From Pythium myriotylum (taxonomy: Eukaryota > Oomycota > Peronosporomycetes > Pythiales > Pythiaceae), in the NCBI GenBank assembly GCA_023091665.1, contig JALJCQ010000025.1:558001-622000 (forward strand): DNA of 64,000 nucleotides, written 5' to 3'. Position 1 is the first letter of the stretch; every line of letters begins with the position of its first letter. The notes beneath the pieces were generated by a model. That model saw nothing but the letters and a program-made list of their open reading frames with translations. It was not told the DNA's origin and ran no database searches. Below are positions 11,708 to 62,808 of the stretch, in pieces. The position numbers and the translations under genes are program-made.

Positions 11708-13024
11708 ATGATCTCGGCAAACAAGCTCTGCGTGCTCGCGCTGTGCGTGGCGGCGCTCGCGACTTCTGGCATGGCCGACGAGCCGGCGGCTCCGCAGCGT
11801 CGTCTGCGTGTGGAGACGTACGGCGGCGGCGGCGGTAAGGGCGGCGGTGGCGGCGGCTGGGGCGGCGGCGGCAAGGGCAAGGGCGGCGGAGGTGGTGGCT
11901 ACGCTGGCGGTGGCAAGGGCGGCGGCGGCTGGGGCGGCAAGTCTGGCGGCGGTGGCGGCTGGGGAGGCAAGGGCGGCGGTGGCGGCGGCTACGCTGGTGG
12001 TGGCAAGGGCGGTGGCGGCGGCGCCTGGGGCGGCGGAGCGCCGTCGTTCGGCTTCGGTGGCTGGGGCGGTGGTGGCGCCGGCGGCGGTGCGTACGGTGGC
12101 AACACGGGCGGCAACAACCCGGTGCCGCTTCCGGCCGTGCCAGCGTCGCAGCCCGTTCCGGAGATGCCGACGCCTGGCGCGGCGGTCCCCGTGCCGGCGC
12201 CAGAGGTGCCTGTGATGCCGACGCCTGGTGCAGCGGTGCCGGTGCCGGCGCCGAACTCGGGCAACTCTGGATGCGCGGGCGGCACGAACGGCGGCGGCAA
12301 CATGGACAGCAACTGCAACCCGGTGCCGGCGCCGGGCCCAGCTCCTCAGCCTCAGCCTCAGCCTCAGCCAGCTCCGGCCCCGGCTCCAGCTCCAGTTCCG
12401 GCACCTGTCCCGGCCCCCGCTCCAGGCCCAGGCCCGTCTCCAGGCTCGAAGCCTTCGCCGGACTGCAGCTCTGGCAACGGCGGCAACATGAACGGCGGGT
12501 GCAACCCGGCTCCGGCGCCTGCCGGCCCGGCTCCAGGCCCTGCTCCAGGTCCTGCTCCGGTCCCAGCTCCGGCTCCTGCGCCTGCTCCGGCCCCAGCTCC
12601 TGGTCCAGGCTCGAAGCCGAGTCCTCCGTCGAGCTCGTCGGGCGACTGCAGCTCCGGCAATGGCGGCAACATGGATGGCGGCTGCAACCCGGCCCCAGCT
12701 CCGGCTCCTGCACCAGCTCCTGCACCAGCTCCTGCTCCCGCTCCTGCACCGGCCCCGGCCCCGGCCCCGGCCCCAGCTCCGGCCCCTGCGCCGGCGGGCG
12801 GCTGTGACGACGACGACGATGACGACGACTCGACGTCGAACTCGAACTGCAATCCCGCCCCTGCTCCTGCTTCTGGCCCAGCGCCCGCCCCGGCGCCAGT
12901 GCCAGCTCCTGTGCCTGCGCCGGCGCCAGCGACGGGTGACTCGTCGGACCCGGACCCGTCCAAGCCGACGGCCGGCAAGCCTGGCAAGCCGCCACGCGAC
13001 CCGAACAGCCCAGTCCAGCAGTAA
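11708..13024 (+). CDS. Secreted Gly-rich/Pro-Ala-rich RRLR protein (left copy)
   Basis: 438 residues. Signal peptide at 1-23 (hydrophobic core LCVLALCVAALA), then RRLR at 31-34, which fits RxLR though no EER motif follows. A Gly-rich block (repeats of GGGGGWGGKG/GGGGGYAGGGKG) covers about 39-135, followed by MPTPGAAVPVPAP repeats, and then four units in which a small loop closed by two Cys (CAGGTNGGGNMDSNC, CSSGNGGNMNGGC, CSSGNGGNMDGGC, and an Asp-rich C...C loop) is followed by an Ala-Pro rod. The tail is basic (DPSKPTAGKPGKPPRDPNS...). It looks like an extracellular structural or wall-associated protein; an effector role is possible on the RxLR alone but weak. The twin at 14053-15369 encodes the identical protein, convergently. 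Confidence 0.85.
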   Translation: MISANKLCVLALCVAALATSGMADEPAAPQRRLRVETYGGGGGKGGGGGGWGGGGKGKGGGGGGYAGGGKGGGGWGGKSGGGGGWGGKGGGGGGYAGGGKGGGGGAWGGGAPSFGFGGWGGGGAGGGAYGGNTGGNNPVPLPAVPASQPVPEMPTPGAAVPVPAPEVPVMPTPGAAVPVPAPNSGNSGCAGGTNGGGNMDSNCNPVPAPGPAPQPQPQPQPAPAPAPAPVPAPVPAPAPGPGPSPGSKPSPDCSSGNGGNMNGGCNPAPAPAGPAPGPAPGPAPVPAPAPAPAPAPAPGPGSKPSPPSSSSGDCSSGNGGNMDGGCNPAPAPAPAPAPAPAPAPAPAPAPAPAPAPAPAPAPAGGCDDDDDDDDSTSNSNCNPAPAPASGPAPAPAPVPAPVPAPAPATGDSSDPDPSKPTAGKPGKPPRDPNSPVQQ

Positions 13025-13301
13025 GCAGCACTTTGTGACTGCCGGGCGTCGACGTCGTGTCGATTGATGTTGTGTTCTCCCGTGGAAAGTCTCGTAGCCT
13101 CATTTTAGATGTAACCAATTTTGAACAACGAAAGCAATTTTCCTACTCTTTCAACTGTCGGATTGGATTGTCGATGGCTTCTCTGAAACTCCTGGATTCT
13201 TCGGATACTCTACTCCATGGAGTGAGAATCAAGGCGTGGCAAAGGAGGAAGAAGGAATCTCTTAAATGAAAGGAGCAAAGTCTCACCATCAACGAGCTGT
13301 C

Positions 13302-13775
13302 AAGTTTTCTGCTGGTCGATTTCTTTGCGCATGACAGATGAACGAGGGTGGAGGAGCATGGATCAAGTTTGGGGCAAGCTGAGAGGTTGCAGGCTGGCAT
13401 GACGAGAAATTTCGGCAAAACAATTGTTCGAGTGAGGCACATTGGTACAGGGGCAAAACCGAATTGGTGCTATCAATGTCCTTTGACGGATCCTAATTAA
13501 CCGATTGACCACGCCTGTGATCTACGCTCCTCAATCGAGGGAATTGCCTCTTCCTTTCGAGGTGAAGTCCATTCGATCGCAATTTGCAAACACGAAACGG
13601 CTACAGTAGTGTCCGGATCGAATCACTCAAAAGCCTTCGCCAATCTACACGGAAATTCCGAACTCAGCACTCGTCTCCTTAAAAATTCCTACAACCGATC
13701 GCTCGCTCGCTCCAAGCGACTGCTCTGACTCTAAGGTTCAGATCCACCACCTCAACGCTTAAATGAGACCAACTC
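13302..13775. other. IR2 spacer
   Basis: 474 unpaired bases at the centre of the palindrome. I see no gene, transposon end or RNA in it. Confidence 0.7.
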
Positions 13776-14052
13776 GACAGCTCGTTGATGGTGAGACTTT
13801 GCTCCTTTCATTTAAGAGATTCCTTCTTCCTCCTTTGCCACGCCTTGATTCTCACTCCATGGAGTAGAGTATCCGAAGAATCCAGGAGTTTCAGAGAAGC
13901 CATCGACAATCCAATCCGACAGTTGAAAGAGTAGGAAAATTGCTTTCGTTGTTCAAAATTGGTTACATCTAAAATGAGGCTACGAGACTTTCCACGGGAG
14001 AACACAACATCAATCGACACGACGTCGACGCCCGGCAGTCACAAAGTGCTGC

Positions 14053-15369
14053 TTACTGCTGGACTGGGCTGTTCGGGTCGCGTGGCGGCTTGCCAGGCTT
14101 GCCGGCCGTCGGCTTGGACGGGTCCGGGTCCGACGAGTCACCCGTCGCTGGCGCCGGCGCAGGCACAGGAGCTGGCACTGGCGCCGGGGCGGGCGCTGGG
14201 CCAGAAGCAGGAGCAGGGGCGGGATTGCAGTTCGAGTTCGACGTCGAGTCGTCGTCATCGTCGTCGTCGTCACAGCCGCCCGCCGGCGCAGGGGCCGGAG
14301 CTGGGGCCGGGGCCGGGGCCGGGGCCGGTGCAGGAGCGGGAGCAGGAGCTGGTGCAGGAGCTGGTGCAGGAGCCGGAGCTGGGGCCGGGTTGCAGCCGCC
14401 ATCCATGTTGCCGCCATTGCCGGAGCTGCAGTCGCCCGACGAGCTCGACGGAGGACTCGGCTTCGAGCCTGGACCAGGAGCTGGGGCCGGAGCAGGCGCA
14501 GGAGCCGGAGCTGGGACCGGAGCAGGACCTGGAGCAGGGCCTGGAGCCGGGCCGGCAGGCGCCGGAGCCGGGTTGCACCCGCCGTTCATGTTGCCGCCGT
14601 TGCCAGAGCTGCAGTCCGGCGAAGGCTTCGAGCCTGGAGACGGGCCTGGGCCTGGAGCGGGGGCCGGGACAGGTGCCGGAACTGGAGCTGGAGCCGGGGC
14701 CGGAGCTGGCTGAGGCTGAGGCTGAGGCTGAGGAGCTGGGCCCGGCGCCGGCACCGGGTTGCAGTTGCTGTCCATGTTGCCGCCGCCGTTCGTGCCGCCC
14801 GCGCATCCAGAGTTGCCCGAGTTCGGCGCCGGCACCGGCACCGCTGCACCAGGCGTCGGCATCACAGGCACCTCTGGCGCCGGCACGGGGACCGCCGCGC
14901 CAGGCGTCGGCATCTCCGGAACGGGCTGCGACGCTGGCACGGCCGGAAGCGGCACCGGGTTGTTGCCGCCCGTGTTGCCACCGTACGCACCGCCGCCGGC
15001 GCCACCACCGCCCCAGCCACCGAAGCCGAACGACGGCGCTCCGCCGCCCCAGGCGCCGCCGCCACCGCCCTTGCCACCACCAGCGTAGCCGCCGCCACCG
15101 CCGCCCTTGCCTCCCCAGCCGCCACCGCCGCCAGACTTGCCGCCCCAGCCGCCGCCGCCCTTGCCACCGCCAGCGTAGCCACCACCTCCGCCGCCCTTGC
15201 CCTTGCCGCCGCCGCCCCAGCCGCCGCCACCGCCGCCCTTACCGCCGCCGCCGCCGTACGTCTCCACACGCAGACGACGCTGCGGAGCCGCCGGCTCGTC
15301 GGCCATGCCAGAAGTCGCGAGCGCCGCCACGCACAGCGCGAGCACGCAGAGCTTGTTTGCCGAGATCAT
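14053..15369 (-). CDS. Secreted Gly-rich/Pro-Ala-rich RRLR protein (right copy)
   Basis: Identical 438-residue protein to 11708-13024: signal peptide 1-23, RRLR 31-34, Gly-rich block, Cys-loop/Ala-Pro units, basic tail. The stop codons of the twins face each other across about 1 kb. Long ORFs on the opposite strand over this gene arise from the GC-rich hexamer structure and are not genes. No sequence difference between the twins was found, so either the duplication is very young, conversion is active, or the assembly duplicated one locus. Confidence 0.85.
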   Translation of the reverse strand: MISANKLCVLALCVAALATSGMADEPAAPQRRLRVETYGGGGGKGGGGGGWGGGGKGKGGGGGGYAGGGKGGGGWGGKSGGGGGWGGKGGGGGGYAGGGKGGGGGAWGGGAPSFGFGGWGGGGAGGGAYGGNTGGNNPVPLPAVPASQPVPEMPTPGAAVPVPAPEVPVMPTPGAAVPVPAPNSGNSGCAGGTNGGGNMDSNCNPVPAPGPAPQPQPQPQPAPAPAPAPVPAPVPAPAPGPGPSPGSKPSPDCSSGNGGNMNGGCNPAPAPAGPAPGPAPGPAPVPAPAPAPAPAPAPGPGSKPSPPSSSSGDCSSGNGGNMDGGCNPAPAPAPAPAPAPAPAPAPAPAPAPAPAPAPAPAPAGGCDDDDDDDDSTSNSNCNPAPAPASGPAPAPAPVPAPVPAPAPATGDSSDPDPSKPTAGKPGKPPRDPNSPVQQ

Positions 15370-15499
15370 CGTGCTTGGAAGAAGAGTCGAGAAGATAAGA
15401 GAGGAGACCGAGTTTCAAGCCGAAGCCGACGCAGTAGTAGCAGTAGTAGAAGATGAAGGAGAAGAAGAAGAGGTCGTGGAGATGACTCTCGCTTGCTCA

Positions 15500-15529
15500 G
15501 TTGCCGAGGAGGCAAATGTCGAAGTGAGA
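15500..15529 (-). promoter_or_regulatory. Inr/FPR-like core promoter of 15369 gene
   Basis: Mirror of 11548-11577, about 130-160 bases upstream of the start codon. Confidence 0.6.
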
Positions 15530-16568
15530 TCCGCCAGCACAAGCGAGTGCGCGCGTCCACTCCCGCACGGGACGGTGAGGAGCCTCCTCCATACTAAAAG
15601 AGCCCACGACCGACGACGTCTATGCACAGTGAGGAGACTCTTCCGTCAGCAGCAAGCGCCGATGAAAGCCGGATGTCACGTGGGTTGCCCGAGAGGATCC
15701 ATCGCCTCGTCTTCTTCTTCTTCTTCTTCTGTTCTGTATTGGCGAGTTCAGTAGAGACGAGCAGGCGTGGGCAGCGAGCGAGAGTCCGGTCCGACTCTGC
15801 GTCGATCGCCTTTCGAGACACTCTTCTGCGGTCTCTCGTGACGAGCTCTCGTGCAACTCTTGGGGTTTCTATGGCGACCACCAGCTGGACAACGACGCGC
15901 CACATGGAACGAGTCAGCATCTGCACGGTCTCAGTAGAGGAGACTGTGTGGCGGCTTGTCAGCAGAGGCGATGCAGTCGCGGCAGCCGGCGCGCGATGGT
16001 TGTGGCGAGCGAGCAGCGCCGAGTGCCTCTACAGACGCGTGCGACGTCGGCGTCCACAGAGGAGTGGCCGTGGCGCTGACGGGGAGGCAGCGAATGCCTG
16101 CCTCGCACGTGGGCAGAAGACATTCGGAGTCGCGACTGGGTTGCACCTGCGAGAGTGGATAAGTGGCTGGTGAGGAGGAGTCGGATCGCGATGAGATATT
16201 CAGTGCTAGAAGAAGATAGGATGATACAAATGAGATTGACTTGGTTTGGTATGCGATGGTATTCAGTAGCCAACTATCTTCCACAGGTCCGCGGGCCGAC
16301 TTGGTCTCGTTGAGGATGGATGACACTCGCGGTCGGTTCGGTCCACTCTGCCGAGCCTCGGAACGAATAAGGCGGATGAGTCATGCACGCTTGGATGAAG
16401 GTCCGCCCGGGACGAATCCGGATCCGCCGTCGTTTCCATTCGTGGGTGGTCTTTGCCTCTACGACCGATCGCTTCTACGTACCCCATGATACAGTAGTAG
16501 CTTGGAGCTCTGGGGATCGTCGCTTGTTGCTGCGTTTGTTGTCGTTGAAAAGACCACATAGACCAGTG

Positions 16569-17891
16569 TGTCTATGTGGTCTTTTCAACAACAAACGGAG
16601 TAATAGCATGAAACTGTCGCATCACGAGCGCTTTCGCTTTTGTCTTCGCTTCGTCACCCAGCCTTCATCTAGCGTTTCAAGAACTTGATAGAAGCCAATC
16701 TCGCGGACGAGAAACTGCAAGGCTGGTCGCCTGTCAGTGAGAAGGGGGAATGTGAATGTGGCTGCAGTCGAGCGTCACGACCCGACGAGATCGCCACCAC
16801 ACGACAATCGATTGATCCAGCTCCAACCACAGTTAAAGTTGTTTCGTTTGCGTCCTGAGACCTCTCAACGCCAATGGCATGGTTCTTAGGTCGCGGCCAG
16901 AGATGTGAATGGGTTCAATAAATGGCTCCACCATCCCCGCTCGCAAGGCCCCATGCTTGGCTCATGCTGTGTTGCTCGACAAGATCCACACATCTCGACC
17001 ATCTCCGCCTTTGCGTCGTCGTTGATTTGGATCTCTGTCACAACGCGTCGTTCGCGCCAGGAGGTCTCCAATCGGGTCAACAGCGAGTCATATACACTAG
17101 GGGGGCTACTTCTTTGCCGCGGCTAAGCGCTTTGAACCACCTCCCTCTCTCATCTATCATAGTCCATTTTGGGGGACGAAGTAAGCAAGCTCCTCGATCA
17201 GTGCGGGGCGTGCAGCAAGCTTCTATTGCATGGCAGGATGCCTTCTTGCAAGACCTGCCCCGCCGTTGCGAACCCCGGTAAAGCGAGCTCATTGATATCT
17301 TCACCGCGGAGCACTGATACGTTGTGATCAGCAGACTCCGCATCAAAAGGGAGCGAAGGAGCAAGCAAGTCCACCGGAAGTGACAGCAGGCGAAAGGTGA
17401 GGTCGGGTGCTGTTATTGGCGAAGCGTCTGTACAAGATAGGATGTCGATGTCGAGAATCCGTTGCCTCTATTGCCGGACTTTGAATGTTTCTCGACGTTC
17501 TTACTGGTGACTCATCCGGCGTCATCCTGGCATCAACAGCTTCTCGCTCTTGACATTTGGTGAGGATGGGTCTGAAAGGCATCACGCAGCCTCGTTGTGT
17601 CTCTATCTTATTACTCTTGACCGAATGCGATGTCGACACGAGGTCAAGAAAACTGAGAAAACTGAAGTCAATCATGATTGCTTTGTCGTCGAGATGGGGA
17701 TGCGCCAACTGATGAGGCGATGCGCAAAATCTAAACAACCAAGATCGATATTTCATGAAGCGAGGTCTTCTCGTCGGCAAAATAGACTGAGATTAGCTCT
17801 CGGGTGCCGCCTTCACCTCAGCATATAATATGTCTGCCTTGCAGGTCATTCGCCCTTTTGCCAAGTCGATAACAACCACCAGTCAGTCTCC
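16569..17891. other. Intergenic region upstream of the carboxypeptidase gene
   Basis: Apart from the short direct copy of the IR2 tip at 16571-16589, I recognise no gene. Short ORFs on both strands have no family features. Confidence 0.6.
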
Positions 17892-21681: not shown

Positions 21682-21755
21682 GAGCATCGTGATCTACAGA
21701 ACAGATCTGAACCTCAACTTGGATGTTCACGTTACTTCAGCAGGGCGACGACGAG

Positions 21756-26381: not shown

Positions 26382-26474
26382 GGGAGATCGTCGAATGGAG
26401 ACGAGGAAGGCATTGGGGTGGTCATGGCAGAGAGACATCCATGGTGGTGTCGGGTGATCGATGAATGAATGGTC

Positions 26475-27497: not shown

Positions 27498-28367
27498 ATG
27501 ATCTCAGCCACCAAGATATCAATCCTTGTCACTTTTTCCTCCGCGGTCGTCTCATGCGCTCTCGCCGACGAGACCTTAGGCCTCGCTCCTTGTCGTCACC
27601 TGCGCGGCGACAGTCCCCAGACCTTCTACGCCAATGAATGGCAGTTCAGCCAGAACCATGGCGGCGATGGAAATCAAAGGGACGAAGGTGATGCGAAGAC
27701 TGATGGAGATTTGAGCGGGTCCGAAGGAAGCGTCGGACTGGTCGGGAACGGTGATACGAGCGAACAGTCGTCGATTGGATCGGTGTCGGATGTTGGCACG
27801 ACAGAACCAGCAGAGGCTCTTGATCCGAGGCAAGCTCAAGCGCCGTCAACCCCACAAGCCGTCGGGAATCCTCTGTTTGCTGGCGAAGCCATTCCAGTAG
27901 CGGACCCAGCTCAAGGCTTTGCTGACAGCAGGTGTGGTCGCGAGATCACCGACAACACGAAAGGTGTTGTCACCTACAGCGACTGCGGCTCTACACGCCA
28001 GACTTCAATTCAGCCATCGACATTCGACCTGGCACCATCCAGTGCCCCAGTGCCGGACTCGTTGGTCACTTCTTTGTCAGGTACCACCTCAAGTTTAGGC
28101 TCAGACCCGGACCAAGTCTTGTCTCCCGCTTTGGGGCTCGGGGGATGCTTCTCGAGCGAAGGCAGTGGTTACGGCACTCCATCGGTCCTCTGGTCTGATC
28201 AAACCCAGGCAGCAAACAATTGCTTTGGAGGTGGTAGTGGGTCGTCGGATACTGGTTGCGAAAGCGCTTTCGACACCGAGTCAGCGAGCCAAGTCTTGTC
28301 TTCTCCATCGCTCGAACTCGTTGGCGTTGGGCCTCTCACTGACGCCCATATCGAGACGCAGAAGTAA
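27498..28367 (+). CDS. Secreted protein with RHLR motif
   Basis: 289 residues from the Met at 27498; the frame is open from 27369, but the Inr-like element and the match to the MI(S/P)A(T/N)K starts of the Pro-Ala family favour 27498. Signal peptide about 1-23 (SILVTFSSAVVSCALA), then RHLRGD at 33-38, fitting RxLR, with no EER motif. The rest is Ser/Gly/Asp-rich and low complexity, with four or more Cys (CGREITDN, CGSTRQ, GGCFSSEG, NNCFGGGSG, TGCESAF). No known enzyme fold. The N-terminus is shared with the Pro-Ala-rich family, so it is a divergent member or has exchanged N-terminal modules. A fragment of a second copy lies at 19573-19698 (minus). A host-directed effector role is inference only. 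Confidence 0.7.
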   Translation: MISATKISILVTFSSAVVSCALADETLGLAPCRHLRGDSPQTFYANEWQFSQNHGGDGNQRDEGDAKTDGDLSGSEGSVGLVGNGDTSEQSSIGSVSDVGTTEPAEALDPRQAQAPSTPQAVGNPLFAGEAIPVADPAQGFADSRCGREITDNTKGVVTYSDCGSTRQTSIQPSTFDLAPSSAPVPDSLVTSLSGTTSSLGSDPDQVLSPALGLGGCFSSEGSGYGTPSVLWSDQTQAANNCFGGGSGSSDTGCESAFDTESASQVLSSPSLELVGVGPLTDAHIETQK

Positions 28368-31004: not shown

Positions 31005-31210
31005 AGAGTCTAGAACATGACTCCGTAAACTTACGGGCACGTTCAAAATTGAGGTTGGATGTCGTAACCGCAGCACAAGGAGGGGATGCAGCAACATGAT
31101 GCTGACCCTCCAATTGCAGCCTGCCACATTCGAATGGTCGGATTCGAATGCTCGGTACGGTGCGAATTTTTTCTGTTTATGATCAACCAAACCCACAAAA
31201 CTCATACGAC

Positions 31211-31613
31211 AAAATGGAGATCTCTGATCTGAGCTGGCAAAAGCAGGTAGTACTATTTACCAATCATGATGTTGTCAACACAACACATGAAACTATACAA
31301 CCGATCTCACCCAGGATGATTACGATCCCATCCATCGATCGAACCACCGGGTCTTGGTCGAAACCGAACAACAAAGACTCGTGCTCCTGAGAGCATACAA
31401 GGCTTCAGTGGTGATCTTTAATGCTGGATGGCGCTGTTCGGGTCGCGGGACGGCTTGCCGGGCTTGCCAGGCTTGTCGCCAGTCGGCTTGGATGAGGTCG
31501 AACTGACCGAGCTGCTTAGGCCGGGCGAAGTCTGAGTCGGAGAGGAAGCTGGTACGACCAAAACCCACAAAACCCTGACTGCAAAATGGGGAAACCCACA
31601 AAACCCTGACTGC
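31211..31613. repeat. 403-bp tandem repeat, unit 1
   Basis: Begins AAAATGGAGATCTCTGATC. The unit holds the 3' flank and the last 45 codons of the gene at 32224-32952. Units 1 and 2 are near-identical and exactly 403 bases apart. At the end of the unit a 31-base sequence (starting AAACCCACAAAACCC) is itself doubled. Confidence 0.92.
31418..31552 (-). pseudogene. 3' end fragment of Pro-Ala gene (unit 1)
   Basis: Encodes the tail ending KPGKPSRDPNSAIQH, identical to the gene at 32224-32952, with no promoter or start. Confidence 0.9.
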
Positions 31614-32016
31614 AAAATGGGGATCTCGGATCTGAGCTGGCAAAAGCAGGTAGTACTATTTACCAATCATGATGTTGTCAACACAACACATGAAACTATA
31701 CAACCGATCTCACCCAGGATGATTACGATCCCATCCATCGATCGAACCACCGGGTCTTGGTCGAAACCGAACAACAAAGACTCGTGCTCCTGAGAGCATA
31801 CAAGGCTTCAGTGGTGATCTTTAATGCTGGATGGCGCTGTTCGGGTCGCGGGACGGCTTGCCGGGCTTGCCAGGCTTGTCGCCAGTCGGCTTGGATGAGG
31901 TCGAACTGACCGAGCTGCTTAGGCCGGGCGAAGTCTGAGTCGGAGAGGAAGCTGGTACGACCAAAACCCACAAAACCCTGACTGCAAAATGGGGAAACCC
32001 ACAAAACCCTGACTGC
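31614..32016. repeat. 403-bp tandem repeat, unit 2
   Basis: Second full unit, with the same boundaries as unit 1. Confidence 0.92.
31821..31955 (-). pseudogene. 3' end fragment of Pro-Ala gene (unit 2)
   Basis: Second tail fragment, identical to the first. Confidence 0.9.
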
Positions 32017-32358
32017 AAAATGGGGATCTCGGATCTGAGCTGGCAAAAGCAGGTAGTACTATTTACCAATCATGATGTTGTCAACACAACACATGAAACT
32101 ATACAACCGATCTCACCCAGGATGATTACGATCCCATCCATCGATCGAACCACCGGGTCTTGGTCGAAACCGAACAACAAAGACTCGTGCTCCTGAGAGC
32201 ATACAAGGCTTCAGTGGTGATCTTTAATGCTGGATGGCGCTGTTCGGGTCGCGGGACGGCTTGCCGGGCTTGCCAGGCTTGTCGCCAGTCGGCTTGGATG
32301 AGGTCGAACTGACCGAGCTGCTTAGGCCGGGCGAAGTCTGAGTCGGAGAGGAAGCTGG
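32017..32358. repeat. 403-bp tandem repeat, unit 3 (partial, native locus)
   Basis: Homology with units 1 and 2 ends at 32358, inside the coding region, after GAAGCTGGTACG. This unit is the source: the real gene continues from here. Confidence 0.9.
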
Positions 32359-32952
32359 TACGGGCACAGACACTGTAGCAGGCTTTGTGGCTGGAACTGG
32401 CATTGGCACCGGCGCGGGAACAGAGGCGGGAACGGGGGCGGGAACAGACGATTGCTTCAAGCTGGGAGCTGGAGCTGGAGCTGGAGCTGGAGCTGGAGCT
32501 GGAGCTGGAGCTGGAGCTGGAGCTGGAGCTGGAGCTGGAGCTGGAGCTGGAGCTGGAGCTGGAGCTGGCGCGAAGCCGAACGACGGCGATCCTCCGATCC
32601 AGCCACCGCTAGGCACTCCGCCCCAACCGCCGCCATACCCCCAGCTTGGCGCCCAGCCGCCGGCGTACCCCCAACTGGGTGCCCAGCCACCACTGCTATG
32701 CCCCCAGTGGCCCCAGTGGCCACCATGTCTCGAGCTCTGGCCTCGAAGTCGGCGCCCCTCAGGCTGGAAAGCCGCCGGGAAAGCTGCCGCGACAGTCGCC
32801 GGGACAATCACCGGGACATTCCCCAGTTCAACCTCCGGGAGATCCCCCGAAACACCAGTCATGGTCATCGGATCGTCGGCAATCACGAATGACGCGGGAG
32901 CCACGAATGCGGCGCAGACCGCGAGCATGCAGAGCTTGGTCGCGGGGATCAT
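32224..32952 (-). CDS. Secreted His/Trp/Gly and Ala-Pro-rich RRLR protein (left copy)
   Basis: 242 residues from the Met at 32952 (MIPATKLCML). The frame is open to 33078, but the Inr-like element at 33020-33046 lies inside that extension. Signal peptide about 1-25, RRLRGQ at 67-72, then a block of HWGHWGH and GGWAPSWGY repeats, an uninterrupted Ala-Pro rod encoded by a GCTCCA hexamer, a VPVP linker, and the family tail DKPGKPGKPSRDPNSAIQH. It lacks the Cys-loops of the other members. Function unknown; composition suggests an extracellular structural or wall protein. The twin at 59643-60503 has 22 more Ala-Pro pairs and ends SPIQQ. Confidence 0.82.
   Translation of the reverse strand: MIPATKLCMLAVCAAFVAPASFVIADDPMTMTGVSGDLPEVELGNVPVIVPATVAAAFPAAFQPEGRRLRGQSSRHGGHWGHWGHSSGGWAPSWGYAGGWAPSWGYGGGWGGVPSGGWIGGSPSFGFAPAPAPAPAPAPAPAPAPAPAPAPAPAPAPAPAPAPSLKQSSVPAPVPASVPAPVPMPVPATKPATVSVPVPASSPTQTSPGLSSSVSSTSSKPTGDKPGKPGKPSRDPNSAIQH
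32464..32568. repeat. Ala-Pro hexamer tract, about 17 units
   Basis: (GGAGCT)n on the plus strand, coding for (AP)n on the minus strand. The matching tract in the twin gene, at 60027-60263, is 132 bases longer. Confidence 0.9.
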
Positions 32953-33019
32953 CTTGGAAGAAGAGACGAAGGGGGGAAGTGAGGAGATGCTGAAGGTCGA
33001 TTTGACTCGATGTTGTGGG

Positions 33020-33046
33020 GCCAAGAGGCTAATTTGGAAGTGAGAA
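33020..33046 (-). promoter_or_regulatory. Inr/FPR-like core promoter of 32952 gene
   Basis: On the minus strand TTCTCACTTCCAAATTAG then CCTCTTGGCC, about 70-95 bases before the ATG; same arrangement as the other Pro-Ala genes. Confidence 0.6.
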
Positions 33047-34307
33047 AGTAGGACCGGGTCAGCAGTCAAAAACGACAAGACAGCGACGACAGCGTGCAGG
33101 AACGGCGATAAAGACGCCGATGTGAAGGCGATTGATTAGAAGGTGTTTAGTGTTGGATCTCATCCGACTGATACGCCTTACTGTTGACACAGAGTCCGAA
33201 CTGAGATAAATCTTCTGTGTCAAGTGCTGCGGTGTATTGGCTGATGTGTTGGCATCGGAAACATTGGACACTCGTCTCTTCGATCGTGTGGGCCGTGGGG
33301 TTTGGGCGAGCGTGGGCGCTAGACGATTGAGTTGGAAGGCTGGAGACATGAATTCAAGTCTCGTCCCTCTGTCCATCTATCCCGTGGAGTCCAGCCGTTT
33401 ACTCGTGTGTCTCCACGTCATGCAATAGTGCGTGAGTCCGCCAGTCTGTCCGGATGGATATCTTCAAAGCTTCTCATCTGGTCCAGGTCACACTGGACTA
33501 CAGCAACAACACCAGGCGATCAGATCGCTTAGTTTCAATTGCACTGCGAGGAAGTTCACGAGATGTCTGTGTCAAAAGGTTTTTTTCGAATCCAGGTAAG
33601 GCAGATGGAGTCGGAGGCGGAGGCGACATCACTGTCTGCCTTCTCCCTGTACACACTGTCACATTGGAACAATGTTCCCAATCTTTGTAGAGGAGAGTCG
33701 AGTGGAAGAGAAATGGTGCGATCTGTGTCTTGCAGAGATATCAGAATACCATATGATCACGCGTCGAAGGCGAAATGGATCGAGATATTGCATCTCCATT
33801 CGCAAGAATCAGTGTGTCGAGGAAGTAAAGTCACGAGTGCTTGCAGCGACACAGAGGGTTTGACGGCGAAGAGGTCACTCGTGCGATGGGTGCACAGGGA
33901 TAAGTTGTCGGCTCCGGATGGATTGTGTATCGCTACCTCGCACGGCTGTAGGAAGAATAAAGAGATCATACCACCCGATCCATCTACTATCCGACAGCGA
34001 CCACCCGATCCGCTGCTCTCGCGGAGATCTTCATCAACATGAGATGTCATCTAGTTACGATAGCCATTGATCAGAGTATCCTTGTGTTCGTTTGTTTTTC
34101 CTTGCCCAGTCCACTTGAGAGAAAAGCCCTGTGCCCGATAATGGTCCTCTGTCTCGCTAAAGAACTCCATCACCTTCCAGAAACAGCTCCGGCAAACTTC
34201 AAACAGGCACAAGAACTTTGCGTTGTCAATTTGAGAAAACCACACTATCGCCAACTACACGGGAAACATCACAAACTCGACAAAGAGTCTCGAGCCTTCG
34301 GCACGAC
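33047..34307. other. Intergenic region between the two Pro-Ala genes (left arm)
   Basis: Near-identical to 58288-59548. It holds a 167-codon ORF at 33539-34042 (plus) and a 97-codon ORF at 33757-34050 (minus). Both are preserved in the other arm, but the arms are too similar for that to show selection. No family recognised. Confidence 0.5.
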
Positions 34308-35405
34308 CTACTGCTGGATCGGGCTGTTCGGGTCACGCGATGGCTTGCCAGGCTTGCCAGGCTTACCGCCGGTCGGCTTAGACGGGTCCGGATCGGACGA
34401 GCCGCCCGACGCTGGAGCAGGCGCAGGCGCAGGAGCTGGCACGGGCGCCTGGCCACCTGAAGCTGGACTAGGGCCCTGGCCAGATGCCGGAGACGGGTTG
34501 CAGTTGGGGTCGGAGGATCCGTCTTTTCCGTTCCCACAGTCGCCTGCTGGTGCCGGAGCTGGTGCTGGTGCTGGTGCTGGTGCTGGTGCTGGTGCTGGTG
34601 CTGGTGCTGGTGCTGGTGCTGGTGCTGGTGCTGGTGCTGGAGCAGGCTTCGCCCCGGGTCCTGGAGCTGGCGCAGGAGCTGGAGCTGGAGCTGGAGCGGG
34701 GGCCGGAACTGGAGCTGGCGCCGGGGCAGGAGCTGGAGCAGGGACCGGAGCTGGGGCCGGAGCTGGAGCAGGATTGCATCCGCCGTTCATGTTGCCGCCG
34801 TTGCCTGAGCTGCATCCTGGAGCAGGCTTCCCCCCGGGTCCTGGAGCGGGAGCGGGGGCAGGTGCCGGTGCCGGTGCCGGTGCCGGTGCCGGGACAGGAG
34901 CTGGAGCTGGAGCTGGAGCTGGCTGAGGACCTTGGTTACAGTTGCTCCCCATGTTGCCACCGCCGTTCGCGCCGCCAGCGCATCCTGAGTTGCCCGAGTT
35001 CGGCGCAGGCACCGGTACTGCCGCACCTGGCGTCGGCATCGCTGGGATGGGCTGCGACGCAGGTACAGCAGGAAGTGGCACCGGGTTGTTGCCGCCCGTG
35101 TTGCCCCCGTAGGCACCGCCACCACCGTTGCCGCCCCACCCACCAAAGCCAAACGACGGAGCACCGCCACCCCCGCCCCAGCCACCGCTCGACTGGCCGC
35201 CCCAACCGCCACCACCGGACTTGCCGCCCCAACCACCACCGCCAGACTTGCCACCCCATCCACCGCCGCCCCACGTCTCACCTCGGAGCCGACGCTGCGG
35301 AGCCTGTGCCTGAGCCAGGAGAGCCGCCGAGTCATCGGCAATGGTCGAAGACGTGAATGCCGAGGCGCACAGCGCGAGCATGCAGAGTTTGGTCGCTGGA
35401 ATCAT
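34308..35405 (-). CDS. Secreted Gly-rich/Cys-loop/Ala-Pro RRLR protein (left copy)
   Basis: 365 residues. Signal peptide about 1-23 (LCMLALCASAFTSS), RRLRGET at 38-44, Gly-rich repeats GGGGWGGKS, GAPSFGFGGWGG, then NNPVPLPAVP, MPTPGAAVPVPAP, and three Cys-loop modules (CAGGANGGGNMGSNC, CSSGNGGNMNGGC, CGNGKDGSSDPNC), each followed by N(P/Q) and an Ala-Pro rod. The tail is KPTGGKPGKPGKPSRDPNSPIQQ-like. Paralogues are at 11708, 14053, 57244 and 61722. The twin at 57244-58287 is 18 residues shorter in one Ala-Pro rod. Probable secreted matrix or wall protein; no enzyme motifs. Confidence 0.87.
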   Translation of the reverse strand: MIPATKLCMLALCASAFTSSTIADDSAALLAQAQAPQRRLRGETWGGGGWGGKSGGGGWGGKSGGGGWGGQSSGGWGGGGGAPSFGFGGWGGNGGGGAYGGNTGGNNPVPLPAVPASQPIPAMPTPGAAVPVPAPNSGNSGCAGGANGGGNMGSNCNQGPQPAPAPAPAPVPAPAPAPAPAPAPAPAPGPGGKPAPGCSSGNGGNMNGGCNPAPAPAPAPVPAPAPAPAPAPVPAPAPAPAPAPAPAPGPGAKPAPAPAPAPAPAPAPAPAPAPAPAPAPAPAPAPAGDCGNGKDGSSDPNCNPSPASGQGPSPASGGQAPVPAPAPAPAPASGGSSDPDPSKPTGGKPGKPGKPSRDPNSPIQQ

Positions 35406-35451
35406 CTTGTAAGGATAGATGAGAAGATGTGAAGAGGGATGTTGTTGTTGT

Positions 35452-35481
35452 GTTGCCGAGAAGGCAAGTTGGAAAGTGAGG
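35452..35481 (-). promoter_or_regulatory. Inr/FPR-like core promoter of 35405 gene
   Basis: On the minus strand ACCTCACTTTCCAACTTG then CCTTCTCGGCAAC, 47-76 bases before the ATG. Confidence 0.65.
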
Positions 35482-54127: not shown

Positions 54128-54149
54128 CGCACTCACTTCCCGAATCTTC
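54128..54149 (+). promoter_or_regulatory. Inr-like element of ankyrin gene
   Basis: GCACTCACTTCCCGAATCTTC, an initiator-like sequence immediately before the ATG at 54160. It argues against the upstream in-frame Met at 54112. Confidence 0.45.
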
Positions 54150-54159
54150 TTCCTGTGCC

Positions 54160-55827: not shown

Positions 55828-55916
55828 CGGATAGGAGGTTTACTCGTCATAAATTTCATGAAGATGCTATCGTTTGGTGTTGGAGCTGAATCTCTACAAG
55901 CTCAAGCTCTCATGTC

Positions 55917-56410
55917 GCACACGTAAAAGGCAGACCAGCATACCCGAAGATTGCTGATGTGCTGGCGGAAAGGATGTCTGTGTTAGTGGAAAGGCTGCGC
56001 TCGGAAAGAGGACACGCAAAGGCAGCGACTGCCCGGCTCTTGGCTACCGTACAAGGCAGACCCGAAATAAGCTGTGCCGCGTTAGGTGGAAATTTAGGAC
56101 GAGCTTCATGGCTACTGGCGCGGAAAGTCAGCAAGTATACGCTGCGGACGCGTTGTGGGAACTGATCAATGAGGATTTTCCCAAACGCGCTCGTATCCTC
56201 CAATGCCTTGTTCAGGCCGTGGAGAATGGATCGGAGACTGTCAAAGAAGTTGTTCTGGACGCATTGGGCGATTTCGTTGCGCGAAGTGCTCAGAATCGCG
56301 ACGTAGCCTTAGATGCAGGCGCATTGAAGCCAGTCACGAAGCTGGCGCACGCAAGTCCGACGAGTCTCCAGACGAGAGCAGACATCGTACTGCATTCTCT
56401 CACCCGGTAG
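55917..56410 (+). pseudogene. Decayed 3' end of ARM copy 4
   Basis: Matches the last 160 or so residues of the gene at 36239-39220: SVLVERLRSERGHAKAATA, a frame break near 56090, then MATGAESQQVYAADALWELI and FPKRARILQCLVQAVENGSETVKEVV through to HSLTR and the stop. Several substitutions and at least one frameshift; no promoter or N-terminus. Confidence 0.9.
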
Positions 56411-57167
56411 GATCTCGGGGATATGTTCATGCCTATTCACTCTTCTTGACGGCAGCAGACGCATACTTCTGAAGTTGTTCATATACTACTCTGGCATTTG
56501 GGTCCTTTCCTCTTTGAGGTGAGGACCAGGATGTGACGATGCGATGAGCCACCCAGCAGCTGATAGGTTCTCGTCTACTCTTCGGCATCGTCCTGCTCCG
56601 TTCTAGTTGACTAAGATCACCACGACGCCAGACGCTCTCGGGCTCATTCTTGACATGATCTCATTTCGGGAACTGCAGACATTCGGAACAGACAACTGCT
56701 CTCAGTGCAGCCACATAACGTGTGGCTTCACAGCCTTCACGCTGTCTGTAGAGGCTCTCGGATCTGCTCTCTGGCCACAAACGTCGTGTTTCGGCTGCTC
56801 CGGCGGTGATCTCCTGACCGCCATACACAGTCTCCTCTACGAAAGTCGGGACCAGTTCGCATCGGAGAACGCTGACTTACGTGGTCGAACAGGTGACACA
56901 GGCCCCCAGCTGCTTCGCCACATACAAACGTCAAGTCAGTGGAACCCAGTTGCAGTTTGATCGGTGTGAGATGGGATGGATGCAATGATGTTGACCAACG
57001 GCGTACATGTGGACTGATACTTCAGTACACAGATGGACAGGCGTACCTTCCCGTCTCTACTCCAATGCATCCCAGGATCCAAGGCACGTGACGAGCTCAA
57101 CGAGATCCCGCCCACTGGGGAGCTGAGACGGAGAAGCTTCCTCCTCGTCGTCGTTCTCCTCGGCTGA
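56411..57167. other. Intergenic region upstream of the right Pro-Ala gene
   Basis: Partner of 35482-36238. The part at about 56600-56880 matches the sequence at 63200-63457 and 63820-64000 better than its own left arm. No gene recognised; a 117-codon ORF at 56607-56960 is carried by the repeat. Confidence 0.6.
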
Positions 57168-57197
57168 CCTCACTTTCCAACTTGCCTTCTCGGCAAC
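57168..57197 (+). promoter_or_regulatory. Inr/FPR-like core promoter of 57244 gene
   Basis: ACCTCACTTTCCAACTTG then CCTTCTCGGCAAC, 47-76 bases before the ATG. Confidence 0.65.
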
Positions 57198-57243
57198 ACA
57201 ACAACAACATCCCTCTTCTCATCTTCTCATCTATCCTTACAAG

Positions 57244-58287
57244 ATGATTCCAGCAACCAAACTCTGCATGCTCGCGCTGTGCGCCTCGGCATTCACGTCT
57301 TCGACCATTGCCGATGACTCGGCGGCTCTCCTGGCTCAGGCACAGGCTCCGCAGCGTCGGCTCCGAGGTGAGACGTGGGGCGGCGGTGGATGGGGTGGCA
57401 AGTCTGGCGGTGGTGGTTGGGGCGGCAAGTCCGGTGGTGGCGGTTGGGGCGGCCAGTCGAGCGGTGGCTGGGGCGGGGGTGGCGGTGCTCCGTCGTTTGG
57501 CTTTGGTGGGTGGGGCGGCAACGGTGGTGGCGGTGCCTACGGGGGCAACACGGGCGGCAACAACCCGGTGCCACTTCCTGCTGTACCTGCGTCGCAGCCC
57601 ATCCCAGCGATGCCGACGCCAGGTGCGGCAGTACCGGTGCCTGCGCCGAACTCGGGCAACTCAGGATGCGCTGGCGGCGCGAACGGCGGTGGCAACATGG
57701 GGAGCAACTGTAACCAAGGTCCTCAGCCAGCTCCAGCTCCAGCTCCAGCTCCTGTCCCGGCACCGGCACCGGCACCGGCACCGGCACCTGCCCCCGCTCC
57801 CGCTCCAGGACCCGGGGGGAAGCCTGCTCCAGGATGCAGCTCAGGCAACGGCGGCAACATGAACGGCGGATGCAATCCTGCTCCAGCTCCGGCCCCAGCT
57901 CCGGTCCCTGCTCCAGCTCCTGCCCCGGCGCCAGCTCCAGTTCCGGCCCCCGCTCCAGCTCCAGCTCCAGCTCCTGCGCCAGCTCCAGGACCCGGGGCGA
58001 AGCCTGCTCCAGCACCAGCACCAGCACCAGCACCAGCTCCGGCACCAGCAGGCGACTGTGGGAACGGAAAAGACGGATCCTCCGACCCCAACTGCAACCC
58101 GTCTCCGGCATCTGGCCAGGGCCCTAGTCCAGCTTCAGGTGGCCAGGCGCCCGTGCCAGCTCCTGCGCCTGCGCCTGCTCCAGCGTCGGGCGGCTCGTCC
58201 GATCCGGACCCGTCTAAGCCGACCGGCGGTAAGCCTGGCAAGCCTGGCAAGCCATCGCGTGACCCGAACAGCCCGATCCAGCAGTAG
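57244..58287 (+). CDS. Secreted Gly-rich/Cys-loop/Ala-Pro RRLR protein (right copy)
   Basis: 347 residues, identical in layout to 34308-35405: signal peptide, RRLRGET at 38-44, Gly-rich GGWGGKS repeats, three Cys-loop/Ala-Pro modules, tail ending DPNSPIQQ. The only clear protein difference is 18 fewer residues in the Ala-Pro rod before the CGNGKDGSSDPNC loop, a loss of nine AP pairs. Its promoter region is partly of a different sequence type from the left twin. Confidence 0.87.
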   Translation: MIPATKLCMLALCASAFTSSTIADDSAALLAQAQAPQRRLRGETWGGGGWGGKSGGGGWGGKSGGGGWGGQSSGGWGGGGGAPSFGFGGWGGNGGGGAYGGNTGGNNPVPLPAVPASQPIPAMPTPGAAVPVPAPNSGNSGCAGGANGGGNMGSNCNQGPQPAPAPAPAPVPAPAPAPAPAPAPAPAPGPGGKPAPGCSSGNGGNMNGGCNPAPAPAPAPVPAPAPAPAPAPVPAPAPAPAPAPAPAPGPGAKPAPAPAPAPAPAPAPAGDCGNGKDGSSDPNCNPSPASGQGPSPASGGQAPVPAPAPAPAPASGGSSDPDPSKPTGGKPGKPGKPSRDPNSPIQQ

Positions 58288-59548
58288 GTCGTGCCGAAGG
58301 CTCGAGACTCTTTGTCGAGTTTGTGATGTTTCCCGTGTAGTTGGCGATAGTGTGGTTTTCTCAAATTGACAACGCAAAGTTCGTGTGCGTGTTTAAAGTT
58401 TGCCGGAGCTGTTTCTGGAAGGTGATGGAGTTCTTTAGCGAGACAGAGGACCATTATCGGGCACAGGGCTTTTTTCTCAAGTGGACTGGGCAAGGAAAAA
58501 CAAACGAACACAAGGATACTCTGATCAATGGCTATCGTAACTAGATGACATCTCATGTTGATGAAGATCTCCGCGAGAGCAGCGGATCGGGTGGTCGCTG
58601 TCGGATAGTAGATGGATCGGGTGGTATGATCTCTTTATTCTTCCTACAGCCGTGCGAGGTAGCGATACACAATCCATCCGGAGCCGACAACTTATCCCTG
58701 TGCACCCATCGCACGAGTGACCTCTTCGCCGTCAAACCCTCTGTGTCGCTGCAAGCACTCGTGACTTTACTTCCTCGACACACTGATTCTTGCGAATGGA
58801 GATGCAATATCTCGATCCATTTCGCCTTCGACGCGTGATCATATGGTATTCTGATATCTCTGCAAGACACAGATCGCACCATTTCTCTTCCACTCGACTC
58901 TCCTCTACAAAGATTGGGAACATTGTTCCAATGTGACAGTGTGTACAGGGAGAAGGCAGACAGTGATGTCGCCTCCGCCTCCGACTCCATCTGCCTTACC
59001 TGGATTCGAAAAAAACCTTTTGACACAGACATCTCGTGAACTTCCTCGCAGTGCAATTGAAACTAAGCGATCTGATCGCCTGGTGTTGTTGCTGTAGTCC
59101 AGTGTGACCTGGACCAGATGAGAAGCGTTGAAGATATCCATCCGGACAGACTGGCGGACTCACGCACTATTGCATGACGTGGAGACACACGAGTAAACGG
59201 CTGGACTCCACGGGATAGATGGACAGAGGGACGAGACTTGAATTCATGTCTCCAGCCTTCCAACTCAATCGTCTAGCGCCCACGCTCGCCCAAACCCCAC
59301 GGCCCACACGATCGAAGAGACGAGTGTCCAATGTTTCCGATGCCAACACATCAGCCAATACACCGCAGCACTTGACACAGAAGATTTATCTCAGTTCGGA
59401 CTCTGTGTCAACAGTAAGGCGTATCAGTCGGATGAGATCCAACACTAAACACCTTCTAATCAATCGCCTTCACATCGGCGTCTTTATCGCCGTTCCTGCA
59501 CGCTGTCGTCGCTGTCTTGTCGTTTTTGACTGCTGACCCGGTCCTACT
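58288..59548. other. Intergenic region between the two Pro-Ala genes (right arm)
   Basis: Mirror of 33047-34307 with a handful of substitutions. Nothing recognised beyond the repeated anonymous ORFs. Confidence 0.5.
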
Positions 59549-59575
59549 TTCTCACTTCCAAATTAGCCTCTTGGC
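59549..59575 (+). promoter_or_regulatory. Inr/FPR-like core promoter of 59643 gene
   Basis: TTCTCACTTCCAAATTAG then CCTCTTGGCC; mirror of 33020-33046. Confidence 0.6.
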
Positions 59576-59642
59576 CCCACAACATCGAGTCAAATCGACC
59601 TTCAGCATCTCCTCACTTCCCCCCTTCGTCTCTTCTTCCAAG

Positions 59643-60503
59643 ATGATCCCCGCGACCAAGCTCTGCATGCTCGCGGTCTGCGCCGCATTCGTGGCTCCCG
59701 CGTCATTCGTGATTGCCGACGATCCGATGACCATGACTGGTGTTTCGGGGGATCTCCCGGAGGTTGAACTGGGGAATGTCCCGGTGATTGTCCCGGCGAC
59801 TGTCGCGGCAGCTTTCCCGGCGGCTTTCCAGCCTGAGGGGCGCCGACTTCGAGGCCAGAGCTCGAGACATGGTGGCCACTGGGGCCACTGGGGGCATAGC
59901 AGTGGTGGCTGGGCACCCAGTTGGGGGTACGCCGGCGGCTGGGCGCCAAGCTGGGGGTATGGCGGCGGTTGGGGCGGAGTGCCTAGCGGTGGCTGGATCG
60001 GAGGATCGCCGTCGTTCGGCTTCGCGCCAGCTCCAGCTCCAGCTCCAGCTCCAGCTCCAGCTCCAGCTCCAGCTCCAGCTCCAGCTCCAGCTCCAGCTCC
60101 AGCTCCAGCTCCAGCTCCAGCTCCAGCTCCAGCTCCAGCTCCAGCTCCAGCTCCAGCTCCAGCTCCAGCTCCAGCTCCAGCTCCAGCTCCAGCTCCAGCT
60201 CCAGCTCCAGCTCCAGCTCCAGCTCCAGCTCCAGCTCCAGCTCCAGCTCCAGCTCCAGCTCCTAGCTTGAAGCAGTCGTCTGTTCCCGTCCCCGTTCCCG
60301 CCCCTGTTCCCGCGCCGGTGCCAATGCCAGTTCCAGCCACAAAGCCTGCTACAGTGTCTGTGCCCGTACCAGCTTCCTTCCCGACTCAGACCTCGCCCGG
60401 CCTAAGCAGCTCGGTCAGTTCGAACCCATCCAAGCCGACTGGCGACAAGCCTGGCAAGCCCGGCAAGCCGTCCCGCGACCCCAACAGCCCCATCCAGCAG
60501 TGA
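59643..60503 (+). CDS. Secreted His/Trp/Gly and Ala-Pro-rich RRLR protein (right copy)
   Basis: 286 residues from MIPATKLCML (the frame is open from 59517, but the initiator lies inside that extension). Same layout as the twin at 32224-32952: signal peptide, RRLRGQ at 67-72, HWGHWGH and GGWAPSWGY block, Ala-Pro rod of about 39 pairs (17 in the twin), VPVP linker, tail ending DPNSPIQQ. The tail agrees with the Cys-loop paralogues (SPIQQ), whereas the left twin has SAIQH. The left twin's tail is the one amplified in the 403-bp tandem array. Confidence 0.85.
   Translation: MIPATKLCMLAVCAAFVAPASFVIADDPMTMTGVSGDLPEVELGNVPVIVPATVAAAFPAAFQPEGRRLRGQSSRHGGHWGHWGHSSGGWAPSWGYAGGWAPSWGYGGGWGGVPSGGWIGGSPSFGFAPAPAPAPAPAPAPAPAPAPAPAPAPAPAPAPAPAPAPAPAPAPAPAPAPAPAPAPAPAPAPAPAPAPAPAPAPAPAPAPSLKQSSVPVPVPAPVPAPVPMPVPATKPATVSVPVPASFPTQTSPGLSSSVSSNPSKPTGDKPGKPGKPSRDPNSPIQQ
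60027..60263. repeat. Ala-Pro hexamer tract, about 39 units
   Basis: (GCTCCA)n, nearly pure, coding for (AP)n on the plus strand. Very likely length-variable between alleles. Confidence 0.92.
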
Positions 60504-61721
60504 AACTACTCAAGTCTTGAATCCTTCGGGACTCGAGAGGCTGTGCTTTTCAAGATAAGTCAGGAATTCGGTGGTCGTTATCGATACGATTATTAATAGA
60601 TTGGACAGCTTTGTATCGTTTCGTGATTTGATAAAACTGGGACTGGTAATACCTGTTTTTGCCAAATCAGATGAGAATTGTTCTCTCCCCTGTCCCGCAC
60701 CCCCCCCCCCCCCCCCCCCCCCCCACACACACACCATTATTCATGGCGTTACTGGCCCATGGACGGAATGCCAGCTAAGCCGCTCATCGATACAATAAAC
60801 GCACAAGAAGCGCTTGCACGGATGGTTGTGAACATTTTCGTCCTCCTCAAACGAAGCGAAGTGTCATGTGTTAAACGGAACGTCTTTGTCAGACGTAGCC
60901 AACATCTTTTTGTGCTAGAGCAGATTGCTTTTAAGGCTTCTTTTTGTCCTGAACGAATCCGAACTCCAGTTATGATCGCATGCATCACCGCAGCGCAAAA
61001 AGATCGAGTGCTGATGTCTTCACCACGCGCGAAGTGAGCGACGCACAAAAGCTCCGACCTGAGGATAGGAGTCGATTACGTTTGCGGCAGGATCCCGACC
61101 CGCCATCCTCAGTTGCAGGACGATACGATAGGCTCGGCGAAAATCTGCCAGTTCCAGGGTGGCTCATCACTCACTACATTCACGCGTAAAGGTTACAAGA
61201 AGCTCGAGCTCAAACGAAGTGACCTTGGTCTCACGATGGTAGCATCTTCTACGACCGCTAGCGTATAGTGGCTTGCATACTTTCTAAGGAGACGTAGGGG
61301 ACTGTGGGCTTGCTTACGCGGGCTAAGCAAAGTCTGCATGTTAACCCAAGCCCGCCCGTCTGCCACTGGTCAAGCTGCCCTTAATCAAGTTGGACGCACC
61401 TTGGACAGTGGTCGACGAGGCAAGTATAAAATGTCTCGCGATATCTGTTGCGCGATCACGTTCGGAAAATCTGTCCAAGCTCAACAATTTTCGATCCGCT
61501 CGGCTCGGCTAGTGGACCAGCTCGGCTACGGCCGAAAACCACAACCTTGAGACTTCAGTCTCATTTCTGAGTTCAGGATCAACTGATATTCAGCCGCGAG
61601 AAATGGGCAGACACTATCAGGTCTATTCATTCAAGGAACACTAGCATTACACCGTCCATTACTCAAGATTTCACGACATGATCTACAAACTATTTCAAGG
61701 AGAGGTCGCTCGACCTGACTC
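60504..61721. other. Intergenic region with C25 run
   Basis: Contains 25 consecutive C at 60700-60724 followed by a short CA tract. No gene recognised in the remaining 1.2 kb on either strand. Confidence 0.6.
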
Positions 61722-62808
61722 TCACTGCTGAATCGGGCTGTTCGGGTCGCGCGACGGCTTGCCTGGCTTGCCAGGCTTACCGCCAGTCGGCTTGGACGGG
61801 TCCGGATCGGACGAGCCACCCGACGCCGGAGCAGGAGCAGGCGCGGGAGCTGGCACAGGTGCAGGCGCAGGTGCTTGTCCACCGGAGGCTGGAGTCGGAC
61901 CCTGGCCGGACGCCGGAGCAGGGTTGCAGTTGGGGTCGGAGGACCCACCGTCGCCGTTGCCATTGCCACAACCACCTGCTGGAGCTGGAGCTGGAGCTGG
62001 AGCTGGAGCGGGAGCGGGAGCGGGAGCGGGAGCAGGTGCAGGGGCCGGAGCTGGGGCGGGTGCAGGCGCTGGAGCAGGGTTGCATCCACCGTTCATGTTG
62101 CCTCCGTTGCCTGAGCTGCAGTCTGGGGAAGGCTTGGTACCGGGGCCAGGAGCCGGGGCCGGCGCAGGAGCGGGAGCTGGGACCGGAGCAGGAGCAGGGG
62201 CAGGGGCAGGTGCTGGGACTGGAGCGGGCTGCGGACCCTGGCCTGGAACCGGGGCTGGGTTGCAGTTGCTACCCATGTTACCACCGCCGTTTGTGCCGCC
62301 AGCGCATCCCGAGTTGCCCGAGTTTGGTGCGGGCACCGGCACCGCGGCGCCCGGCGTCGGCATCACCGGAACACCAGGAGCCGGCACCGGAATCGCCGCG
62401 CCAGGAGTCGGCATCGCTGGGATGGGCTGCGACGCAGGCACGGCCGGAAGTGGCACCGGGTTGTTGCCGCCCGTGTTGCCGCCGTAGGCGCCACCACCAC
62501 CGTTGCCGCCCCAGCCACCGAAGCCAAACGACGGAGCACCGCCACCTCCGCCCCAGCCACCGCTGGACTGGCCGCCCCCAACCACCACCGCCAGACTTGC
62601 CACCCCATCCACCGCCCCCGGACTTGCCGCCCCAACCTCCACCGCCAGACTTGCCACCCCATCCACCGCCACCCCACGTCTCACCTCGGAGCCGACGCTG
62701 CGGAGCCTGTGCCTGAGCCTGGAGAGCCGCTGAGTCATCGGCAATAGTCGGAGACGTGAATGCCGAGGCGCACAGCGCGAGCATGCAGAGTTTGGTTGCT
62801 GGGATCAT
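61722..62808 (-). pseudogene. Secreted Gly-rich/Cys-loop/Ala-Pro RRLR protein, frameshifted
   Basis: Starts MIPATKLCMLALCASAF with RRLRGET at 38-44 and Gly-rich GGWGGKS repeats. At about 62575-62579 a run of five C on the plus strand replaces the four found in the paralogues. The length, 1087 bases, is three times 362 plus one, so a single extra base breaks the frame. Beyond it the proper sequence continues in the other frame: GGQSSGGWGGGGGAPSFGF, MPTPGAA repeats including an extra GVPVMPTPGAAVPVPAP, Cys-loops (CAGGTNGGGNMGSNC, CSSGNGGNMNGGC, CGNGNGDGGSSDPNC), Ala-Pro rods and the DPNSPIQQ tail. Either a very recent pseudogene or a homopolymer sequencing error. Confidence 0.8.

Follow-up and report, generated by a model that had tools for sequence, protein, structure and literature searches.

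The window analysed here is a stretch of 64,000 nucleotides from Pythium myriotylum (contig JALJCQ010000025.1, hereafter C25; C25:558001-622000), and the genome searched comprised 58.7 Mb in 55 contigs. The window contains seven loci of a modular family of secreted proteins, named below by their left-hand coordinates (Table 1), in which an RxLR motif of the kind known from effectors precedes a repetitive body. As a preliminary description of the window had stated, all seven carry the signal peptide start MI(P/S)A(T/N)K, the motif RRLR and a basic KPGKP...RDPNS tail; five (11708, 14053, 34308, 57244 and 61722) also have short loops closed by two Cys, and 32224 and 59643 have none. All seven loci are real, but they amount to about four independent sequences, the rest being mirror copies.

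The family in the genome and its RxLR leader

DNA and protein searches of the genome located further members at C25:625 kb, C15:1003-1031 kb and C6:396-434 kb. The criteria for selecting intact open reading frames (ORFs) were a signal-peptide-like start and the content of Gly or of alternating Ala-Pro (AP), without regard to R.LR; they gave 35 ORFs (8 on C25, 9 on C15 and 18 on C6). R.LR was present in 35/35 of these, at residues 26-67, and in 3/25 of the remaining signal-peptide-like ORFs of the clusters, many of which are probably not genes; these three are the 27498 gene, a frame-shifted copy and, at the C15:1008204 locus, an ORF read in a different frame. Across 16 distinct N-termini (15 from this genome, including the 27498 gene, and one from P0001, a homologue described below) the motif stood in the context R[RHLQ]LR-x-[EQD]-[TSA], preceded by a leader of variable length and sequence. 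The invariance of R, L and R in this set is circular because the ORFs were picked by R.LR, and the flanks alone are informative. EER, DEE, EEK and EDR were absent within 70 residues past the motif in all 35 ORFs (0/35).

Two classes of body follow the leader, one with Cys-loops and rods and the other with Gly blocks only. The 18 ORFs of C6 are of the second kind, Gly-rich, without Cys past the motif and with at most three consecutive AP units. The loop-rod module emphasised in the preliminary description is found in the loop genes of the window but does not unite the family, the Gly-only class having only the leader and Gly block. The family is real, larger and more regular than first noted and, as a set of structural low-complexity proteins, ordinary; its unusual point is an effector-type motif in all members found.

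Loops, rods and tails

The 39 loops counted have 8-14 residues between both Cys. Every Cys of the mature part lies inside a loop in 10/13 loop-bearing ORFs, a count that excludes the 27498 gene (2/5 Cys in loops) and the frame-shifted copy; the exceptions are C15:1008204 (4/5 Cys in loops) and the pair C15:1027459/1030189 (2/4, the rest in an extension past SPIQQ). The members of this pair (C15:1027459-1028364 and 1030189-1031094) are mirror copies, and both extend 43 residues past the usual SPIQQ end. N(P/Q), said earlier to follow each loop, does so in 21/21 loops of the intact C25 genes but in only 1/18 of the C15 cluster, where the next residues are GP (10), FS (4), SP (2), DP (1) and NP (1). 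Another loop type, WCKD..GN.IDPSNCFSGPIPAP, is common to C15 genes and P0001. At C15:1003200-1004351 and 1005581-1007263 all Cys occur in C-x4-C pairs (CSGYNC and similar) before TPISLPP, and the proteins have FDPKQ ends; these members add a third design to those that follow the RRLR leader. An SP(I/V)QQ end was found in 11/17 loop/rod-type ORFs, and a QQ end in 0/18 Gly-only ORFs.

The AlphaFold2 (AF2) model of 34308, a single protein modelled on a shallow alignment of 10 sequences, had a mean predicted local distance difference test (pLDDT) score of 55 and a predicted template modelling (pTM) score of 0.17. Its sole helix lies at the signal peptide region, and confidence was higher for the rods, whose block means reached 78, than for the Gly block at about 40.

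Rods of the (AP)n type occur in other proteins of the genome as well, among them a transglutaminase with an Ala-Pro rod and an Asn/Trp-rich tail (L022:1393-3279) and a papain-type protease bearing a long Ala-Pro rod (L017:1176-3485). Another secreted-type repeat family (L019:394-2130 and 3658-4728; C13:678500-684500) combines SPPSVNVNN repeats with an AP rod in two opposed copies.

Alternating Ala-Pro is the glycomodule of plant arabinogalactan proteins, and together with 15 prolyl-hydroxylase-type (PF13640) stretches in the genome it would suit arabinogalactan-like proteoglycans, whose hydroxylated and glycosylated rods would act as an adhesive or a hydrated gel, loops and tail being of minor importance. 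PF13640 is, however, broad and matches two bacterial control genomes too; the 18 Gly-only ORFs have at most three consecutive AP units, and no glycosylphosphatidylinositol (GPI)-like hydrophobic C-terminus was seen in the members checked. We consider proteoglycans of this kind unlikely.

Coding status of the ORFs

Ratios of non-synonymous to synonymous substitution rates (dN/dS), calculated with rods and Gly runs left out, were 0-0.45 in 13 overlapping comparisons, which have genes in common and which, for mirror copies, are based on few changes. The top values (0.41 and 0.45) belong to recent copies with few changes, and several mirror copies are uninformative on selection because their flanks are identical as well. 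With the exception of 61722, mirror copies keep an open frame despite rod-length changes of 18-45 codons. The rods of 11708 and 34308 use many codon pairs with varying third positions; those of 32224/59643 are nearly pure DNA repeats in which third positions hardly vary. Codon positions 1 and 2 of rods are uninformative because they were fixed by the picking of the rods.

Upstream of the genes, the top shared 7-mer was the simple CAACAAC in 6/16 genes (maximum of 5 in 50 shuffles), and no shared 8- or 9-mer rose above the shuffles. A CAYTY...AAYTTGCC-like element, which we take to resemble the oomycete core promoter, preceded 8/17 genes as against 2.4% of random stretches, the pattern having been tuned on these very genes.

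GC-rich repeats, other long open frames overlapping the genes and the nearly pure repeats in the 32224/59643 rods are what might be expected of low-complexity DNA misread as protein, with frames open by composition. The dN/dS values, the upstream element (tuned pattern) and P0001, a homologue from another source with most of the modules, speak against this explanation, which we regard as very improbable.

Homologue and domain searches

The Pfam scan of the window covered six family members (61722 as a fragment; 14053 omitted as a duplicate of 11708) and the 27498 gene, and gave no match up to E 0.1. Six relatives gave PF07172 alone, at 24.1 and 19.2 bits in two of them (cut-off 30), and nothing in the other four; Glycine-rich protein PF07172 was rejected as an assignment. 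Three matches in a search of PDB sequences with a profile of the family (E 9e-7 to 1e-4) were read as low-complexity matches. The proposed modular family of secreted proteins with no named domain is supported for the tested members, in which no Pfam model reached its cut-off. PF16810 had no match in the window members or the genome, and was silent in the control genomes as well.

A protein search with 34308 returned 81 matches; of six examined in sequence only P0001 (JGI-sourced, 274 aa) has the module set, with QRRLRGDS, a Gly block, NNPVPLPAVPA, Cys-loops and a ...TPIQQ end. It differs in its short rods and in the absence of the Lys tail. A search with P0001 residues 30-205 found P0001 alone. 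The carboxypeptidase at 17892, used as a control, had 1898 matches, with many named oomycetes among the 120 listed; the best of those listed were a JGI protein (60%) and, among named species, Globisporangium splendens (54%). The earlier assignment of the DNA to an oomycete is borne out, this carboxypeptidase being closest to oomycetes among named proteins.

If the proteins were RXLR-type effectors or secreted decoys, RRLR would direct host delivery. The combination of a signal peptide with RxLR at the effector position in 35/35 ORFs agrees with this, and RXLR effectors without EER exist (PMC11754927; papers are cited by PubMed Central (PMC) number, each for the excerpts available). Against it stand the lack of EER-type motifs throughout the set, the empty Pfam scan of the window members and the 27498 gene, the lack of a PF16810 match in the genome (its control being silent), the disordered AF2 model, the Gly/Ala/Pro composition and dN/dS below 0.5. 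Effectors or decoys seem to us distinctly improbable. The trafficking hint that the preliminary description drew from RRLR is its most valuable element, but a site for processing of the leader is probably a better reading of the motif than an effector signal, given the lack of EER and of a predicted fold and the structural composition.

A putative wall or matrix precursor with a proposed leader cut at RxLR

The sequences appear to fit best a family of secreted structural precursors that is specific to a lineage of oomycetes; its members would be cut at RxLR to remove the leader and would then serve in the cell wall or in a surface matrix. We put the probability of this reading at about one half; a wall or matrix polymer had also been raised in the preliminary description. 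The signal peptide would direct entry into the endoplasmic reticulum, and the short leader would be cut at RxLR, probably as RRL|R, by a protease of the kind that processes RXLR effectors. The mature chain is predicted to be largely unfolded, with a Gly block, stiff Ala-Pro rods, Cys-loops and a Lys-rich tail often ending in SP(I/V)QQ, and would be incorporated into an extracellular network through loop disulfides (assumed) and perhaps transglutaminase links via QQ and the Lys-rich tail. Both kinds of link are plausible, and both the location and the cross-linking of the proteins are deduced from sequence; the genome has 14 TGase_elicitor stretches, one of them followed by an AP rod. What the sequences themselves establish is gene structure, conservation of the motif, selective constraint and duplication in mirror pairs.

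Removal of the leader at RxLR is suggested by analogy with Phytophthora infestans effectors and diatom RXL leaders. In P. infestans every tested effector was cut at RXLR before secretion, and the motifs at which this happens are located close to the signal peptide, in disordered stretches (PMC11754927). The protease is not firmly identified there: two aspartic proteases had weak in vitro activity, and candidates are called for (PMC11754927). Diatom biosilica proteins have a leader with RRL at its end; silaffins reportedly lose it through an unknown protease, and its loss has been suggested for Sin1 (PMC5525289, PMC4557024).

Several points weigh against a wall or matrix precursor of this kind. 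Mapping has placed the cut after L in a single effector, Pi04314, while an earlier report located that of Avr3a behind the second R (PMC11754927). The proposed transglutaminase links do not hold for the Gly-only class (0/18 with QQ) or for the 6/17 loop/rod-type ORFs without SP(I/V)QQ; they are deduced from the position of Gln and Lys, and P0001 is without the Lys part. Ala-Pro rods being common linkers in this genome, their presence does not specify a function, and since an ARM-repeat gene is paired too (see below), mirror duplication is not limited to the family. Signal peptides were called by a hydrophobicity rule, not by SignalP, and the clusters were located via similarity to RRLR-bearing members, so that motif-less relatives elsewhere would escape. 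Distant relatives may likewise be missed because each public protein search scored only about 8,000 candidates, those with most shared words.

Comparison with known systems

Minicollagens combine Pro-rich rods with Cys modules, and loricrin and small proline-rich proteins are Gly-rich chains with Gln/Lys ends for transglutaminase; as animal proteins these are design analogies only. Phytophthora RXLR effectors resemble the family in the signal peptide and in an RxLR within a disordered stretch near the N-terminus (PMC11754927), whereas the family has no EER or predicted fold, a structural low-complexity body and purifying selection. The diatom RXL biosilica proteins (silaffins, cingulins and silicanin-1; PMC4557024, PMC5525289) are alike in layout, being biased matrix proteins of a stramenopile with a signal peptide and a short RRL/RXL-ended leader; the family differs in having no silica link, and no repeats were seen to be released at further RXL sites.

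Among oomycete proteins, the P. infestans M96 family, whose members are induced by mating and are putative wall proteins, is likewise multigene and compositionally biased, and concerted evolution has been reported for one mating-induced family (PMC5999078). It differs in being His/Ser/Gly/Tyr-rich, and the available text of that paper describes no RxLR, loops or rods. The loricrin-like protein PiLLP (PMC5298957), from an oomycete as well, contains Gly and has a part in the formation of oospores; unlike the present family it has 12.7% Gly, no signal peptide and one reported homologue per oomycete genome.

In the portion of PMC4289400 available, RRLR occurs only in effector tables, and no paper in open-licence PMC brought together RXLR, oomycete and silaffin. 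More speculatively, and with odds well below even in our view, RXL cutting might be an old stramenopile maturation step for wall or matrix proteins, represented by the diatom silica proteins and this family, whose leader and protease RXLR effectors then adopted. On this view the effector motif would originally have been a site for the processing of wall proteins. As a large family that does not look effector-like, with the motif in all members found, these proteins would supply natural substrates for the RXLR protease, and they offer a testable link between the RXLR motif and RXL processing in diatoms.

Mirror-image duplication and other features of the window

Many of the family genes, of which the genome has at least 35, form mirror pairs, in three clusters on three contigs. 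In the window, the block with 32224 and 34308 is inverted relative to that with 59643 and 57244, with which it shares 95.8% identity over 4228 nt and 93.9% in a further piece of 374 nt, and 61722 has an intact mirror copy past the window end (C25:622469-623542). An ARM-repeat gene at 1-6840 is likewise an inverted pair (arms 97.6% and 93.3%).

Table 1. Family loci, related features and inverted repeats in the window
Feature	Position	Strand	Description
Inverted repeat, left arm	10504..13306	.	2803 nt, 99.93%, 464-nt spacer; carries 11708
Intact family gene, 438 aa	11708..13024	+	Signal peptide, RRLR at 31, Gly block, four Cys-loops on AP rods, tail ...RDPNSPVQQ
Inverted repeat, right arm	13771..16573	.	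Pairs with 10504..13306; carries 14053
Mirror copy of 11708	14053..15369	-	Identical, 438/438 codons
Leader-type relative	27498..28367	+	MISATK..., RHLR at 33; body unrelated, non-repetitive
Three tandem units	31189..32294	-	403-nt period; repeats of the 3' end of the 32224 gene
Loop-less family gene, 242 aa	32224..32952	-	RRLR at 67, AP rod, tail ...DPNSAIQH
Inverted block, arm	32460..36685	.	95.8%, pairs with 55977-60134
Family gene, 365 aa	34308..35405	-	RRLR at 38, three Cys-loops, tail ...RDPNSPIQQ
Inverted block, other arm	55977..60134	.	Pairs with 32460-36685
Mirror copy of 34308	57244..58287	+	3 synonymous, 0 non-synonymous differences in 347 codons; rod 18 codons shorter
Mirror copy of 32224, 286 aa	59643..60503	+	Longer AP rod; 5 synonymous, 7 non-synonymous differences in 242 codons
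Inverted repeat, left arm	61252..63522	.	2271 nt, 99.3%, 232-nt spacer; right arm from 63755 beyond window end
Frame-shifted family gene	61722..62808	-	Break inside Gly block; N-terminal module and loop part in two frames

The near-identical arms suggest recent duplication or gene conversion. Errors of assembly, which would make the palindromes artefacts and inflate gene number, might be suspected from arms that are in some cases 99.3-99.9% identical with spacers of 232-792 nt. We think them improbable, a little more so than an effector role, as arm identities are of many ages (93-99.9%) and each spacer is unique, rod lengths differ from arm to arm, and the pattern recurs in three contigs and in the unrelated ARM-repeat gene.

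The start of the 32224 gene was placed at the ATG at 32952, correcting a CTG at 33099. Elsewhere in the window, 47728-51558 encodes a large protein with teneurin-type EGF repeats.

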